Positions 9,606-17,487 of a stretch of DNA of 23,354 nucleotides are shown piece by piece (the first letter of the stretch is position 1; each line of letters begins with the position of its first letter). The translations under genes were made by a program, and so were the position numbers. Under the pieces are notes generated by a model. It was given only the letters and a program-made list of their open reading frames with translations, had not been told where the DNA came from and ran no database searches. The stretch is from the IMG/VR virus record IMGVR_UViG_3300048555_000201, positions 1 through 23,354 of that record. One strand, written 5' to 3'. Source of the stretch: a virus.

Positions 9606-11429
9606 ATGACCCCAACGCAAACAAAGCTGCGTTCATGTCTGAGTATCGCTGACTTTTCCAAGAGACGAGCCGCTGTTCGCGGTCTTTTCTCTGCGTCAGT
9701 TTCAGTACGTGTTCAGAACAGCATACAGTCTGCGGTTAAGTCCGCAGATAAGGCGACCCTGCCGCCAAGTGTAGCAAGGAAACCAACACCCTCAGTCATT
9801 CGCGACAACATGACCATCATCACGATGGCCCTAATCATCGAGCAGTCAAGCGGTGGTTTGGTGGGTGAGTATAACGCCGTCAGCATGACGATGGATTGCA
9901 TCGGAGACCAAGGCTTATGCGCATCCGGCAGAGGCGGCAAGACTCGCTTTGCGGAGCACGAAAAACACCAAGAAGAGTTCGATCAACTCATTGCAACAAC
10001 AATCACGGAGACACCACCTATGAGCTTAACCGCCGCACTTAACGCTTACGATTACGCACGTATCGAGGGCTTTGCCGAGGAAATGACCATCTGGCAGGAT
10101 CTTGCCGAGGTTTGCGACCAAACCACGTCTGACGGGGTCAAGTCCCTCGTTGGTATTCGCGAGGTAGCAGACACCCCACGTACCGTGTCGGACATCAAAC
10201 TCGACCTCATGGCCCCTGATGATCTTGCGCTCTACGAGAAGATCTTAACGCACCTTCAGTCAGAGCCAATGGCAGACGAGCCAACGCCTCGAACCGTCCT
10301 CAATCCACCCACCGACCCCGCGCTTATCAACCTTGCGCTATCACAGGCCAGTCTGCCGCCAATCACAGACCTGATCGAGCAGATCAACACGCTCACAGAA
10401 GAGCTTGAGAAGGCCCACAGCACCCCTGTAATCGGATCTGCATCCGAGGAGTCCAAGCACGACGGAACGATCCCTAGTGGACGTCTGACGACTCAGGAGG
10501 CATGGAGAGCGTTCGGTCTGGCGCGAGGCAAGAAGCAGTTCAGCTTTAAGGTGCCTGTATGGGAGTGGGATTCACCTCACCCTCACGTGCCAGAGGTTGA
10601 CGAGGACTACGTGTTCCGTCCGTTCGAGCTGTTGCGTGTGTTGTACGCAGTCATGACCAACCAACGCTGTTACCTGCACGGCCACACTGGATCGGGCAAG
10701 ACAACGCTTGTCGAACAGGTTGCGGCACGTCTTACATGGCCGTTCATGCGTGTCAATTTCGACAGCGAGATCACACGTATGGATCTCATCGGACGTGATG
10801 TTCTGGTCAACGAGGGCGGTGTTACTTCATCCAAGTTCGTGGACGGTATCTTGCCCCAGATGATGTCTGGCCCGTATATCGGGTGCCTCGACGAGATAGA
10901 CTTCGTGCGTCCTGACATTGCCTACGTCTTACAACGTGCGGCAGAGGGCAACGGTCTCATGCTCACCGAGGATGGTGGCCGTATGGTCAAGCCTCACAAG
11001 CTGTTCCGCATGTTCGCAACTGGCAACACTGTCGGGCAGGGTGACGAGTACGGTATGTACCAAGGCTCACGTCCACAGAGCATGGCGTTCCTTGATCGTT
11101 GGACTGTGTGGGTCAAGGTCGACTACCTCAAACCCGCTGATCGCAAGCGTCTAATATCTGCACGTCTGCCCAAGTTGCCAGAGGTACACGCAGAGAAGCT
11201 CAACAGATACGTGACCGAGCATCTTGAGGCGTTCACCAAGTCCAAGGTCATGCAACCAATATCTCCACGTGGGTTCCTATCACTAGGGCAAGCCATGTGT
11301 GCCTACCTATCATTCATCGACGACGAGAAGAAGGCAGTCGAGGAAGCCCTTGAGACTACGATGCTTGACCGAGCAACGGTCAATGATCGTGCAGTCCTCA
11401 AGGCAATTTCACAGCGAGTATGGGGTTAA
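9606..11429 (+). CDS. MoxR/CobS-like AAA+ ATPase with long N-terminal extension
   Basis: A 607-residue protein. The AAA+ domain (about residues 320-540) has Walker A GHTGSGKTT at 359-367, Walker B CLDEID with D429/E430, sensor-1-like FATGNTVG and a RW motif (AFLDRW). The segments VEQVAARLTWPFMRVNFDS, DLIGRD and PHKLFRMFATGNT follow the cobaltochelatase CobS pattern closely. CobS itself is near 330 residues; here about 300 extra N-terminal residues include a short coiled coil near 255-280. I chose the ATG at 9606 (GGAG upstream); a second possible start is 10020. It precedes the VWA/HExxH gene by two bases. MoxR/CobS ATPases remodel partner proteins together with a VWA protein. With no CobN seen in the window, cobalt insertion is unlikely to be its job here. 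Confidence 0.88.
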   Translation: MTPTQTKLRSCLSIADFSKRRAAVRGLFSASVSVRVQNSIQSAVKSADKATLPPSVARKPTPSVIRDNMTIITMALIIEQSSGGLVGEYNAVSMTMDCIGDQGLCASGRGGKTRFAEHEKHQEEFDQLIATTITETPPMSLTAALNAYDYARIEGFAEEMTIWQDLAEVCDQTTSDGVKSLVGIREVADTPRTVSDIKLDLMAPDDLALYEKILTHLQSEPMADEPTPRTVLNPPTDPALINLALSQASLPPITDLIEQINTLTEELEKAHSTPVIGSASEESKHDGTIPSGRLTTQEAWRAFGLARGKKQFSFKVPVWEWDSPHPHVPEVDEDYVFRPFELLRVLYAVMTNQRCYLHGHTGSGKTTLVEQVAARLTWPFMRVNFDSEITRMDLIGRDVLVNEGGVTSSKFVDGILPQMMSGPYIGCLDEIDFVRPDIAYVLQRAAEGNGLMLTEDGGRMVKPHKLFRMFATGNTVGQGDEYGMYQGSRPQSMAFLDRWTVWVKVDYLKPADRKRLISARLPKLPEVHAEKLNRYVTEHLEAFTKSKVMQPISPRGFLSLGQAMCAYLSFIDDEKKAVEEALETTMLDRATVNDRAVLKAISQRVWG

Positions 11430-11431
11430 TC

Positions 11432-13285
11432 ATGAAAACATCTACATTCACCAACGAACTTACAAAATCATCCGCAGTGTTCGGACGCAAGCATGACATC
11501 AAGGTCGTGTTTACTGGCGACAGTGCGGCAACCAATGGCGAGACAATCAAGCTACCCGCCATCGACAAGAACAGCAACATGACCGACGAGCAGATGGATA
11601 TTCTGCGTGGTTACGTAGACCATGAGGCAGGTCACGTTAAGCACACGGATCATGCGGCTGTCAGAGCATTGGGCGAGGAGTGCAGACTTAACGACAACAT
11701 GCACCTCAAGTCTGTCTGGAATGCGCTTGAGGACATATGGCTTGAGCGTCGTGTCATGGATGATTATCCGGGTGCGGCTCACAACCTTGCGGCAACGACT
11801 AACGCTGTCAACAAGGAGTTCCTTGAGCTTGCGGCCAAGAAGCCAGACTACGCGAAGCATGACAACGCTGTCGCGGCAGTTGCGATCACATGGGAGGGGC
11901 GCAAGTCTTACGGCGGCCCGACATGTCAGCAGTGTCTCGACCTAATCAACGAAGATCTCAGGAACACGCTCCCCAAGTGGGTTGGTGCGCTTGAGCATTG
12001 CCGTACCACGCAGGACGTTATCGCGCTTGCTCGTGTGGTTCACCAATCATTGCGCGACGAAGACTACAAGGAGAAACCAGAGGATGAGCCAAGAGATGCA
12101 AGTGAAGATACAGGTGATGGAGAAGAACGATCCGAGCCAAGTGCCAGTGACGATAACGGTGACGAAGAGCGGAGCGACGACGCCGGAGCTAGTGAAGATA
12201 GCACAACGGGTGATGAAGACGATGGATCTGATGGCGGCACCGTGCCTGATGACGGTATTGCCGAAGGAGAAGTTACGCCAGACGATGCTGAACCCGAACC
12301 GTTTGACCCAGATTTAGGCAAGCATGTAGAGACCCTCATGAAGCGTGGCGAGCTAACGTCCTCGGATGGATTCTCTTACGTCACATATGATGAAGAGGAT
12401 GCTTGGCACCACCGCACACTAGAGACCTATAACTCTCGCATCTTACGTGATGGCAATCCCATCGTGTACGACAACCTGCTTCATGACATGGCAGGTGAGG
12501 TTAATTCCATGCGCAACAAGCTGATGCGTTCACTCGTAGCCAAGCAGAAGCGTGACTGGGATTATGGCCGAGAGGATGGTCGTCTGGATACACGTCGGTT
12601 TACGCAAGCCTTTGGTGGTCGAACCAACGTGTTCAAGATGCGCACTGACAGCACCGAACTCGACACAGCAGTCACCGTGCTCGTGGATCTTAGCGGCAGT
12701 ATGCACGGCAGTAAGATCAAGCTCGCGACACAGTGTTGCATAGCCATGTGTGAGTCACTCGACAAGGCAGGTGTTGCTTACGAAGTCTTGGGCTTCACTA
12801 ACGAGTACACCTACCCAGAGACTCTTGATGTGAAGTATGACCGTCTGCTTCCATTGCACATGTTCATCTTCAAGCAGTTCGACGAGCGTTTGTTCGAGGC
12901 CAAGGGTTCTATTGCCGCCATGAAGGACATGGCACTGTGGGACAACTCGGATGGTGATGCTGTAGCCAAGGCACATGCGAGACTGCTCGATAGGCAGGAG
13001 CGTAGACGTGTGATGTTGGTGCTGTCTGACGGTTACCCTGAGTGTAGCGGTGATCGTGTAAACATTGATCGTTATACCCGCAACGCAGTTAATGACGTCG
13101 CCAAGTCTGGCACGGACATTATCGGTATCGGCATCATCTCCGACGCTGTCCGCAGATACTACCCGAAGTACACGGTGGTGAAGGATGTCAGCGACCTTGC
13201 AGGTGCGGCAATGGATCAACTGTCCAAGGCGTTACTGGGTGACCGCTTCCAAGTAGATAACAGCAAGCTCATGGATGTTTCATGA
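11432..13285 (+). CDS. CobT-like VWA protein with HExxH motif
   Basis: A 617-residue partner of the preceding ATPase. Residues 64-68 are HEAGH, a metallopeptidase-type HExxH motif, followed by NALEDIWLER at 97-106 that could give a third Glu ligand. Residues about 217-295 form a very acidic Asp/Glu/Ser/Gly linker, as in CobT. The C-terminal VWA domain has the metal-site motif DLSGSM (D419, S421, S423) and a later VLSDGYPE. I chose the ATG at 11432 over 11420 because GGGG lies six bases before it. CobT in cobalt chelatase joins the ATPase ring to the chelatase. Here the HExxH region may be a protease or substrate-binding part. The pairing is clear; the activity is inferred. Confidence 0.88.
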   Translation: MKTSTFTNELTKSSAVFGRKHDIKVVFTGDSAATNGETIKLPAIDKNSNMTDEQMDILRGYVDHEAGHVKHTDHAAVRALGEECRLNDNMHLKSVWNALEDIWLERRVMDDYPGAAHNLAATTNAVNKEFLELAAKKPDYAKHDNAVAAVAITWEGRKSYGGPTCQQCLDLINEDLRNTLPKWVGALEHCRTTQDVIALARVVHQSLRDEDYKEKPEDEPRDASEDTGDGEERSEPSASDDNGDEERSDDAGASEDSTTGDEDDGSDGGTVPDDGIAEGEVTPDDAEPEPFDPDLGKHVETLMKRGELTSSDGFSYVTYDEEDAWHHRTLETYNSRILRDGNPIVYDNLLHDMAGEVNSMRNKLMRSLVAKQKRDWDYGREDGRLDTRRFTQAFGGRTNVFKMRTDSTELDTAVTVLVDLSGSMHGSKIKLATQCCIAMCESLDKAGVAYEVLGFTNEYTYPETLDVKYDRLLPLHMFIFKQFDERLFEAKGSIAAMKDMALWDNSDGDAVAKAHARLLDRQERRRVMLVLSDGYPECSGDRVNIDRYTRNAVNDVAKSGTDIIGIGIISDAVRRYYPKYTVVKDVSDLAGAAMDQLSKALLGDRFQVDNSKLMDVS

Positions 13286-13467
13286 AGCGCGTCAAGGTAC
13301 GCACTGAGTGGATGGGCTTGCACCCCCGAAATGACATGCGTTTCTGGCTTGCCGTTGCACTGCGCGTCAAGACACGGAGCGTTCGTCACAAGGATTTCCA
13401 TACGATCAAGCTGATTTGTATGGAGGTCGATCATCAAATCAAACAACTGAAAGGAGACCAAGTATGA
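13282..13467 (+). CDS. Small basic protein coupled to the VWA gene, unknown
   Basis: A 61-residue basic protein (MKRVKVRTEW start; net charge strongly positive). Its ATG overlaps the VWA stop as ATGA and has no ribosome site of its own; its stop overlaps the next ATG as ATGA too. The tight coupling on both sides argues that it is translated. It holds an aromatic/hydrophobic centre (DMRFWLAVALRVK) and no known motif. The family is not recognised. Confidence 0.6.
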   Translation: MKRVKVRTEWMGLHPRNDMRFWLAVALRVKTRSVRHKDFHTIKLICMEVDHQIKQLKGDQV

Positions 13468-13985
13468 ATATATTTTTCGTAGACAAAGATCCCAAGATTG
13501 CGGCGCAGTCTTTGGGTGACAAGCATGTTGGTAAGATGCTTGTTGAATCTGCGCAGATGTTATTCACCGCTGTTCGTGAGCATGGCTACGATGGTGGTGG
13601 TTACAAGTCTGCGTATCAACACCACCCCATGACCAAGTGGGTGGGCAAGTCTTACCTACATGCGCAGTGGTTGCTTGACCATGCTATCGAACTCGCACGA
13701 GAGTTTGAATTGCGTTACGAACATGAGCACAAAACCAAATCCATGTTGCCAGTGTTGAGCATGGCCGTGCATCACCACATGCCAGAAAAACCATGGCGCA
13801 ATCCGCCTCGCTGTATGCCTGACATCTACAAGATTGCTTACGATGCTTGGGAGGGTGACATCCCGTGTCACGTCCAATCATATCGTGACTTCTACAGGTG
13901 TGAGAAAACAACATGTCACAAGTACACCAATCGTGCTGTGCCTAAGTGGTTGAGCGAGGTTATCACGGAGGTGCCTCATGTCTGA
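13464..13985 (+). CDS. Conserved phage protein (MNIFFVDKDP family), unknown
   Basis: A 173-residue protein with a strong AAGGAG site. The opening MNIFFVDKDPKIAAQSLGDK, then HVGKMLVESAQML and the segment with HHPMTKWVGKS and AQWLLDHAIELAREFELRY, fit a widespread family of phage and bacterial proteins of unknown function in which DKHV, HP and WL..H are conserved. Many His and Cys residues (including HVQSYRDFYRCEKTTCHKY) could bind metal or nucleic acid. It is translationally coupled to its neighbours. I recognise the pattern but not an activity; a DNA-repair or nuclease role would be a guess. Confidence 0.8.
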   Translation: MNIFFVDKDPKIAAQSLGDKHVGKMLVESAQMLFTAVREHGYDGGGYKSAYQHHPMTKWVGKSYLHAQWLLDHAIELAREFELRYEHEHKTKSMLPVLSMAVHHHMPEKPWRNPPRCMPDIYKIAYDAWEGDIPCHVQSYRDFYRCEKTTCHKYTNRAVPKWLSEVITEVPHV

Positions 13986-15884: not shown

Positions 15885-16394
15885 ATGGAACTCACAGAAC
15901 TAATGGCCAGTGTAAGCCGAGTGGAGCACAAGCTAGAAGAACAGACGCAACAGCTAAAACTATTAACTCAAATTGTAACCTTCTTGTCGGAGAAGATCAG
16001 CACAACCACATCGCAAGATGGTGCGGAGACAACCTCACATTCGGTAGCTACGATGACGGAGACACCGAACACGCTATTCAAACTCACCCTAAAGCAACAT
16101 GGAACATTGCAAATGTTGCTTGATGGTAAGTCTAACTTTGAAATAGCTAAAAGATTTGATGTGTCAGAGGACACAGCCAAAGTCTACGTGAGGACAATAG
16201 CCAAGAAGTATGGGGTTAATACACGCGCCCAGATCGTCATGGCTACCTTGGAAGAGTTCAACTCAGTCGGTGATGATGTCTATCAGAGAATATCTGGTGG
16301 TCTGCCTAAAGATTGGCACTCCAATTTCTCTGAGCCAGATCCATTCGCTGACCTATACAGCAGGAAGAAGCATGAGCCTAAATCTAAGTCTTAG
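15885..16394 (+). CDS. LuxR/GerE-type HTH regulator with coiled-coil N-terminus
   Basis: A 169-residue protein with AGGA seven bases before ATG; an in-frame stop lies twelve bases upstream, fixing the start. Residues 1-38 form a coiled coil (RVEHKLEEQTQQLKLLTQIV), probably for dimer formation. Residues 66-122 are a GerE-type HTH: LTLKQHGTLQMLLDGKSNFE, IAKRFDVSEDTAKVYVRTIA, then KYGVNTRAQIV, with the recognition helix around 94-108. There is no receiver or autoinducer domain, so it is a minimal DNA-binder. It lies just downstream of the operator cluster and overlaps the integrase by 23 bases, so they are co-expressed. It is a good candidate for the lysogeny regulator or an integrase control factor. 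Confidence 0.85.
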   Translation: MELTELMASVSRVEHKLEEQTQQLKLLTQIVTFLSEKISTTTSQDGAETTSHSVATMTETPNTLFKLTLKQHGTLQMLLDGKSNFEIAKRFDVSEDTAKVYVRTIAKKYGVNTRAQIVMATLEEFNSVGDDVYQRISGGLPKDWHSNFSEPDPFADLYSRKKHEPKSKS

Positions 16395-17400
16395 GGGTAA
16401 CGTCTGGCAGGTCAATGGAAGCGTCAAAACTTTGACGGGTGACACTGTTCGCGTCAGAAAGTCGACGGGGTTCACGAAACCTGAGAGACGCTACGCCCAA
16501 GTTGTTATGAATAAAATTATGGAAGATGCCCTTCACGGGCGTCTCCCTACCAAAGACGCATCTTCTGGAGTCGAGTACGTCGCCGATGCCATTGATGCTT
16601 TTATCCATCGACCTAGTCCGCCGGGTGAGACAGACGTCAGGGCTTTAATGAAAGTGAAGTCTGAGTTGGGGTCTATCAAGCTAAAGACAATAACAATCGC
16701 TGACTTCATGGATTACTTTTCCAAGCGTCGGATTGCGGCAAACTCTTTGGCGCGTGAAATGACGAGCGTCAACGCCATGATTAGTTATGCGAGAGACGGT
16801 GGCATGTCCGCGCCAGACATCAAACTAAAGAGACCACAGTACGACGACGAGCGAGTAAGGTGGTTGTATCGAGAAGAAATGGATGCGCTTATCGAGGCGT
16901 GTCCACCAGACATCAAGACCCTTGTGGCTTTCCTGTTCTTTACGGGCGCAAGACTTGGTGAGGCTACGTCCTTGAGGTGGAGAGACGTGGTTGGCAACTC
17001 GGCTATCTTTTCTAGCCGCAAGGGTAAGGCCAAGAAGATTAGACGCCGATCAATAATACTTTCTCCATCCATGATTGAGGCCATGGGGGAGAAGGGCGCG
17101 TCTAATGATTATGTTTTCAAGAACACAATCGGAAACAAATGGGATCGAAGTAATTTCTACACATACTTCAACCCTGTTTGCGAAGAGCTAGGGATTGAAG
17201 ACTTCCACCCACATGATTGCAGACACACGTTTGCATCACACCTAGTGCAGAAGGGCGCAAGCCTTGGACACGTGGCCGAACTACTAGGTCACTCGTCTTT
17301 GCAGATGGTGATGAGGTATGCACATTTAGCACCTGCACACCTTGAGAGTACTGTTAGTCTCCTTTGGGATGCTGACACAAAACGGACACAACCCCAATGA
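16372..17400 (+). CDS. int: Tyrosine site-specific recombinase (phage integrase)
   Basis: A 342-residue integrase that would insert the phage into the host chromosome and excise it. I chose the ATG at 16372 (AGGA upstream), since residues before it do not resemble an integrase. An N-terminal arm-binding region is followed by a core-binding domain (about 70-155) and a catalytic domain with R194 (FTGARLGEA), K217, H281 and R284 (HDCRHTF), H307 (LLGHSS) and Y316 (MRYAHL), so all key residues are present. It overlaps the LuxR-type gene and ends 12 bases before a tRNA gene on the other strand, the usual place for an attachment site. Confidence 0.95.
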   Translation: MSLNLSLRGNVWQVNGSVKTLTGDTVRVRKSTGFTKPERRYAQVVMNKIMEDALHGRLPTKDASSGVEYVADAIDAFIHRPSPPGETDVRALMKVKSELGSIKLKTITIADFMDYFSKRRIAANSLAREMTSVNAMISYARDGGMSAPDIKLKRPQYDDERVRWLYREEMDALIEACPPDIKTLVAFLFFTGARLGEATSLRWRDVVGNSAIFSSRKGKAKKIRRRSIILSPSMIEAMGEKGASNDYVFKNTIGNKWDRSNFYTYFNPVCEELGIEDFHPHDCRHTFASHLVQKGASLGHVAELLGHSSLQMVMRYAHLAPAHLESTVSLLWDADTKRTQPQ

Positions 17401-17412
17401 ATAGGGAGTGGA

Positions 17413-17487
17413 TGGTGCTGTCGGAGAGGATTGAACTCTCGACCTCTCACTTACCAAGCGAGTGCTCTACCACTGAGCTACGACAGC
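17413..17487 (-). tRNA. tRNA-Thr (anticodon GGT), CCA encoded
   Basis: The minus strand folds into a complete cloverleaf. The acceptor stem GCTGTCG/CGACAGC is perfect. The D stem is GCTC/GAGC. The anticodon stem CTCGC/GTGAG has one G-T pair, with loop TTGGTAA giving anticodon GGT. The variable loop has 5 bases, the T stem is GAGAG/CTCTC with loop TTCAATC, and the discriminator A and CCA are encoded. Nothing looks degenerate. Sitting next to the integrase, it is either a phage-carried tRNA, a target rebuilt by integration, or part of attP. No second copy of its 3' half was seen in the window. Confidence 0.95.

Follow-up and report, generated by a model that had tools for sequence, protein, structure and literature searches.

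A roseophage ATPase-VWA protein pair labelled cobS/cobT is probably not a cobalamin locus and may be a protein remodeller with a peptidase-like domain

The name CobT is shared with a lower-ligand-base protein of Salmonella, which is unrelated to the proteins discussed here. MoxR-VWA chaperones include NorQ/NorD and CbbQ/CbbO, whose tasks are the insertion of metal and the activation of Rubisco. Across hundreds of marine phage genomes, "cobS/cobT" has been counted as a B12 auxiliary metabolic gene, and viral CobST has been proposed to borrow the CobN of the host and thereby raise cobalamin synthesis (PMC8651126). Almost all members of the published family of CRP-810-type phages carry "cobS" and "cobT," and the paper describing them calls its cobT the lower-ligand-base gene (PMC11288001). 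For jumbo phages, a MoxR-VWA-peptidase pair has been proposed to process structural proteins during virion assembly and maturation (PMC7824862). Both the occurrence of the pair in CRP-810-type phages and the notion that phages may encode a MoxR-VWA metallopeptidase are therefore already on record, and a limited literature search with partial coverage found no paper on the difference in HExxH between viral and cellular CobT that is described below.

The window analyzed here comprises an entire IMG/VR record (23,354 bases) and represents a fragment of a CRP-810-type roseophage genome. Its gene order is that of CRP-810, with portal and terminase genes running leftward, followed by a rightward module composed of the ATPase, the VWA protein, a pyrimidine-dimer glycosylase, a LuxR regulator, an integrase, and tRNA-Thr; the DenV-like glycosylase gene lies downstream of the pair in both. 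At positions 16378-17487 of the window, the integrase is followed immediately by tRNA-Thr (ggt), which agrees with the report that CRP-810 integrates at tRNA-Thr. Both open reading frames of the pair lie where the first-pass annotation had placed them, and the HEAGH motif, the NALEDIWLER motif, and the acidic linker that it had described in the VWA protein were all found (Table 1). The VWA protein is laid out as an N-terminal HExxH domain, an acidic linker, and a C-terminal VWA domain, and its gene begins 2 bases past the stop codon of the ATPase gene. Pfam matches of the pair were AAA_5 (6.6e-15), CobT PF06213 (1.3e-22), and CobT_C PF11775 (1.2e-34). An identical 617-residue VWA protein (100% identity) is encoded on two other metagenome contigs.

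Table 1. Features of the ATPase-VWA locus, in window positions
Feature	Position	Strand	Evidence or remark
MoxR/CobS-type AAA+ ATPase, 607 aa	9606..11429	+	AAA_5, phrog_249, TIGR01650 170 bits
Walker A GHTGSGKT, ATPase aa 359-366	10680..10703	+	
Walker B CLDEID, ATPase aa 427-432	10884..10901	+	
CobT-like VWA protein, 617 aa	11432..13285	+	phrog_1576, TIGR01651 180 bits
VWA protein N-terminal domain, aa 1-215	11432..12076	+	AlphaFold2 model; PF06213 7e-16 on aa 1-200
HEAGH, aa 64-68, predicted helix 52-71	11621..11635	+	Conservation, model
NALEDIWLER, aa 97-106, predicted helix 90-111	11720..11749	+	E100/D101, candidate third metal ligand
Acidic low-complexity linker, about aa 211-296	12062..12319	+	Translation
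VWA domain, about aa 401-616; MIDAS DLSGS aa 419-423 and D533	12632..13279	+	
Pyrimidine-dimer DNA glycosylase (DenV-like)	13461..13985	+	PF03013 3.4e-07, phrog_624

The AAA core of the ATPase spans about residues 323-600 and is complete, with Walker A, Walker B, sensor, and arginine residues, as expected of a member of the MoxR AAA+/VWA class. Nine residues (G359, G362, G364, K365, D429, E430, N474, R498, and R555) were invariant in 37 relatives. About 350 residues precede Walker A, which begins at residue 359 compared with mostly about 75-160 in cellular CobS, so the earlier estimate of about 300 extra N-terminal residues was off by no more than a few tens. The model of the ATPase (pLDDT 88.4) predicts that this extra part is mostly helical, and its best matches among solved folds were NorQ (9qh9) and CbbQ2 (6l1q). 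In relatives of the VWA protein, MIDAS residues D419, S421, S423, and D533 were invariant, and the ATPase and VWA genes were linked in nearly all loci.

The resemblance of the pair to the ATPase and VWA parts of cobaltochelatase, noted in the first-pass annotation, reflects true CobS/CobT homology in both Pfam and NCBIfam. The match to TIGR01651 covers residues 6-598 of the VWA protein, and the solved CobT structure 9uka aligns with residues 7-599 (E 3e-38). Both proteins nevertheless fell short of the equivalog cut-offs, with 169.9 bits against 558.55 for the ATPase (TIGR01650, CobS) and 180 bits against 759.05 for the VWA protein (TIGR01651, CobT). A search with PF02514 confirmed that the window fragment contains no CobN. 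Using the same profile, we detected CobN in none of the 42 records of phages and plasmids that carry relatives; 19 of these are named phage or plasmid records searched whole. Among bacterial genomes carrying relatives, CobN was missing from seven of eight and present in one. It was also missing from 40 of 41 Vibrionaceae, the family of the phage ICP2 host Vibrio cholerae, and from the E. coli control.

The absence of CobN is by itself a weak argument and cannot separate the two forms, since cellular CobST also often occurs without CobN. No PF02514 (CobN/BchH) match was found in 15 of 33 alphaproteobacterial genomes of unstated completeness with CobT above the equivalog cut-off (G001, G009-G065); since some matches in the remaining genomes resemble BchH, even fewer genomes may have true CobN. 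In three genomes without a CobN match, a DnaJ-domain protein is encoded directly upstream of cellular CobS (L155 3859-4464, L156 4143-4901, and L159 9525-10109).

HExxH followed by a conserved acidic residue (E100), the sequence signature of zincins, was present in 59 of 62 mobile-element relatives (90% nonredundant). By column, H64 was kept in 60 of these proteins, E65 in all 62, H68 in 60, and E100 and D101 in 61 each. In 52 nonredundant relatives, H64, E65, H68, E100, and D101 were invariant, whereas the median column was 40% conserved, which argues that the motif is not due to chance. Many loci had been retrieved with patterns holding part of the motif, and retrieval bias was therefore tested with half-motif matches. 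Loci matching only the RGxxDHE pattern kept H68, E100, and D101 in 47 of 47 cases, and those matching only NxLED kept H64, E65, and H68 in 20 of 20, thus excluding this bias. HExxH was also found in relatives retrieved through the VWA domain or through their position beside CobS, namely those of cyanophages, Pelagibacter phage HTVC008M, Rhizobium phages, ICP2, Ochrobactrum OC, Cupriavidus and Klebsiella phage-plasmids, a Salmonella island, and a Halomicrobium plasmid. Counting against a peptidase are the ICP2 protein, which lacks E100, and three proteins, from Pseudomonas phage nickie, Stenotrophomonas phage BUCTxx99, and an Acinetobacter phage-plasmid, that have lost both histidines and kept E65; judging from their sequences, these three may be pseudo-peptidases. 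The neighbor of CobS in Listeria LP-018 has neither HExxH nor a D.S.S motif and was omitted from the relatives.

Cellular CobT differed at the same columns. In a set of 30 proteins, whose loci with one exception were taken from matches far above the cut-off, HExxH was found in none and E100 in all. In a FastTree tree, 20 cellular CobT proteins formed a single clade (support, 0.985) nested among HExxH-bearing proteins, the direction of change, a loss of HExxH, resting on midpoint rooting. Because E100 is kept, HExxH is absent, and the clade is nested in this way, cellular CobT looks like a degenerate version of the HExxH-bearing family. Taken together with the missed cut-offs and the absence of CobN from carriers, this contrast indicates that cobalamin synthesis is probably the wrong label for the pair, as the first-pass annotation had suspected.

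The N-terminal domain (residues 1-215) was modeled with AlphaFold2 from 48 sequences, giving a pLDDT of 93.7 and a pTM of 0.89, with HEAGH on one helix (52-71) and E100 on another (90-111). The first-pass annotation had proposed a metallopeptidase-like part and comparison with known peptidase folds. The conserved HExxH and glutamate and the confident model agree with the former, whereas the fold comparison did not: a Foldseek search against the PDB returned no solved peptidase or zincin fold and no match with an E value below 2. Against the BFVD viral models, significant matches were mostly to the domain's own family, including haloarchaeal viruses. DUF2201_N was considered as a homologous peptidase with a similar order of motifs and was rejected; the VWA protein has no Pfam match to PF13203 (DUF2201), and the profile comparison (hhalign E 0.056, probability 1%) did not reach significance whether the alignment was shallow or deeper, reversed controls being included. 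A single-protein scan with the T5S1 CobT and the full 15-sequence alignment yielded nothing. In the reading preferred below, the N-terminal domain is a probable built-in peptidase.

The neighborhoods of relatives vary with the type of element. Cyanophages have recombination endonuclease genes, then "peptidase"-cobS, then clamp and clamp loader genes, as in P-HM2 (gp47-gp46-[pair]-gp45-gp44) and similarly in others. Phage-plasmids and related phages have the VWA and ATPase genes followed by dnaE, and IncC plasmids have, in order, the ATPase, an unknown gene, ssb, bet, exo, DUF3150, and the VWA gene (locus L188, 2804-10797). One search yielded 1,431 plasmid records with relatives and a second yielded 991. 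In relatives of the window, the most common families downstream of the pair were integrase, LuxR, primase/helicase, DNA polymerase, and glycosylase. Since the pair adjoins replication and recombination genes across element types, a role in DNA metabolism is favored over one in virion assembly. Within the window clade itself, the pair lies near a DNA-repair gene and an integrase and no polymerase is adjacent, which counts against replication clients. On the Halomicrobium plasmid, the row (L147, 6-10133) consists of a Ser/Thr kinase, an AAA ATPase, a vWA protein with HELGH, and a HEAT-repeat protein. A transfer defect of s063 in SXT has been published (PMC2791158) and is not used as evidence for the pair.

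These data allow several readings to be weighed. Cobalamin synthesis with a borrowed CobN (PMC8651126) has in its favor the full-length homology and the existence of CobN in some hosts, e.g., Poseidonocella. However, both equivalog scores are far under the cut-offs, the viral form keeps the HExxH that cellular CobT has lost, and the proposal is weakened by the absence of CobN from carrier records, most carrier genomes, Vibrionaceae, and E. coli and by the lack of de novo B12 synthesis in the lineage infected by CRP-810 (PMC9426536; PMC11288001); we regard it as highly improbable. Maturation is a common role among phage peptidases, and the architecture of the pair equals that of group 2.2 jumbo phages, for which processing of structural proteins was proposed (PMC7824862). 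Yet in both CRP-810 and the window the pair belongs to a rightward nonstructural module, whereas the structural genes run leftward, and homologues occur on conjugative IncC plasmids. The most frequent downstream families in relatives include no virion family, and a virion machine thus seems distinctly unlikely.

A nonstructural location and a wide spread over phages, phage-plasmids, and IncC plasmids would also suit a weapon that cleaves or disassembles host defense or regulatory proteins. This appears very unlikely, as the conserved neighbors are replication and recombination genes and as a PADLOC scan matched the VWA protein to no known defense model. The scan gave only weak matches of the ATPase to IetA, which would be defense and not counter-defense; on these matches, the pair was not accepted as a defense system either. 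It is less improbable, though still unlikely, that the HExxH domain carries a metal with a structural or regulatory role, or passes metal on, with the machine only unfolding or loading its clients, as NorQD does. The ATPase folds closest to that of the pair, NorQ and CbbQ, are to our knowledge not known as proteases, the fold of the N-terminal domain is unlike those of solved peptidases, and some relatives persist without the histidines. Against this stands E65, the most conserved residue of the motif (62/62), since the glutamate at this position in classical HExxH enzymes is catalytic rather than metal binding.

The kept HExxH, the lack of CobN, and the frequent location beside DNA-copying genes make it more probable that the pair takes proteins apart than that it serves vitamin synthesis. 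From sequence and models, we put at about an even chance the full reading that the pair is a nonstructural MoxR-type AAA+/VWA protein remodeller with a peptidase-like domain and clients in DNA metabolism, and not a B12 gene. The ATPase, given its fold and invariant motifs, would form a MoxR-type AAA+ ring, on which the VWA protein may dock through its MIDAS-bearing C-terminal domain, by analogy with NorD on NorQ. The HExxH domain would be tethered by the acidic linker, with a metal held by H64, H68, and E100 (or D101) and with E65 as the putative general base, and it could then cut or pry apart the protein engaged by the ring. Likely clients would be proteins on replicating or recombining DNA, since relatives in unrelated elements sit by replication and recombination genes. 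Cellular CobT would be a related branch that lost HExxH. A broader reading, that the mobile-element family consists of AAA+-driven metalloproteases acting on replication and recombination complexes and that cellular CobT is their catalytically dead descendant, is tentative and in our judgment more probably wrong than right; if it holds, a B12 enzyme owes one of its subunits to a protease partner.

Should the viral protein prove to be a remodelling protease, the B12 inference would be wrong for a large class of elements that comprises phages, phage-plasmids, and IncC plasmids. A pair of cyanophage core genes whose role is uncertain would gain a testable function, and the N-terminal domain of CobT would gain an evolutionary origin.

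Among known systems, the cellular CobS/CobT pair is alike in having a MoxR-type ATPase beside a protein with an N-terminal domain, an acidic linker, also seen there in the alignment, and a VWA domain. It differs in its much shorter CobS N-terminus, in lacking HExxH while keeping E100, and in CobT scores of >759 bits compared with 180 in the window. The "CobS/CobT" or "peptidase/CobS" pairs of mobile elements (PHROG 249/1576), compared in cyanophages, SSU5-like phage-plasmids, IncC plasmids, and CRP-810-type phages, belong to the same family and share HExxH plus glutamate and the linked ATPase; the window clade has the longest ATPase N-terminus, and the neighboring genes vary. NorQ/NorD and CbbQ/CbbO share the ATPase fold (TM about 0.84 on target) and a VWA partner, and we know of no HExxH domain in them. 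In N4, gp24/gp25 (AAA plus a DUF2201_N metallopeptidase and VWA-like protein) likewise has the AAA gene upstream and HELWH followed by WNYACDIYIN, compared with HEAGH followed by WNALEDIWLE, although the profile-profile similarity of gp25 was the nonsignificant one given above. The jumbo-phage MoxR-vWA pair shares the architecture and a proposed N-terminal metallopeptidase domain, which may be of the CobT or the DUF2201 type; it differs in its proposed role in virion assembly (PMC7824862).
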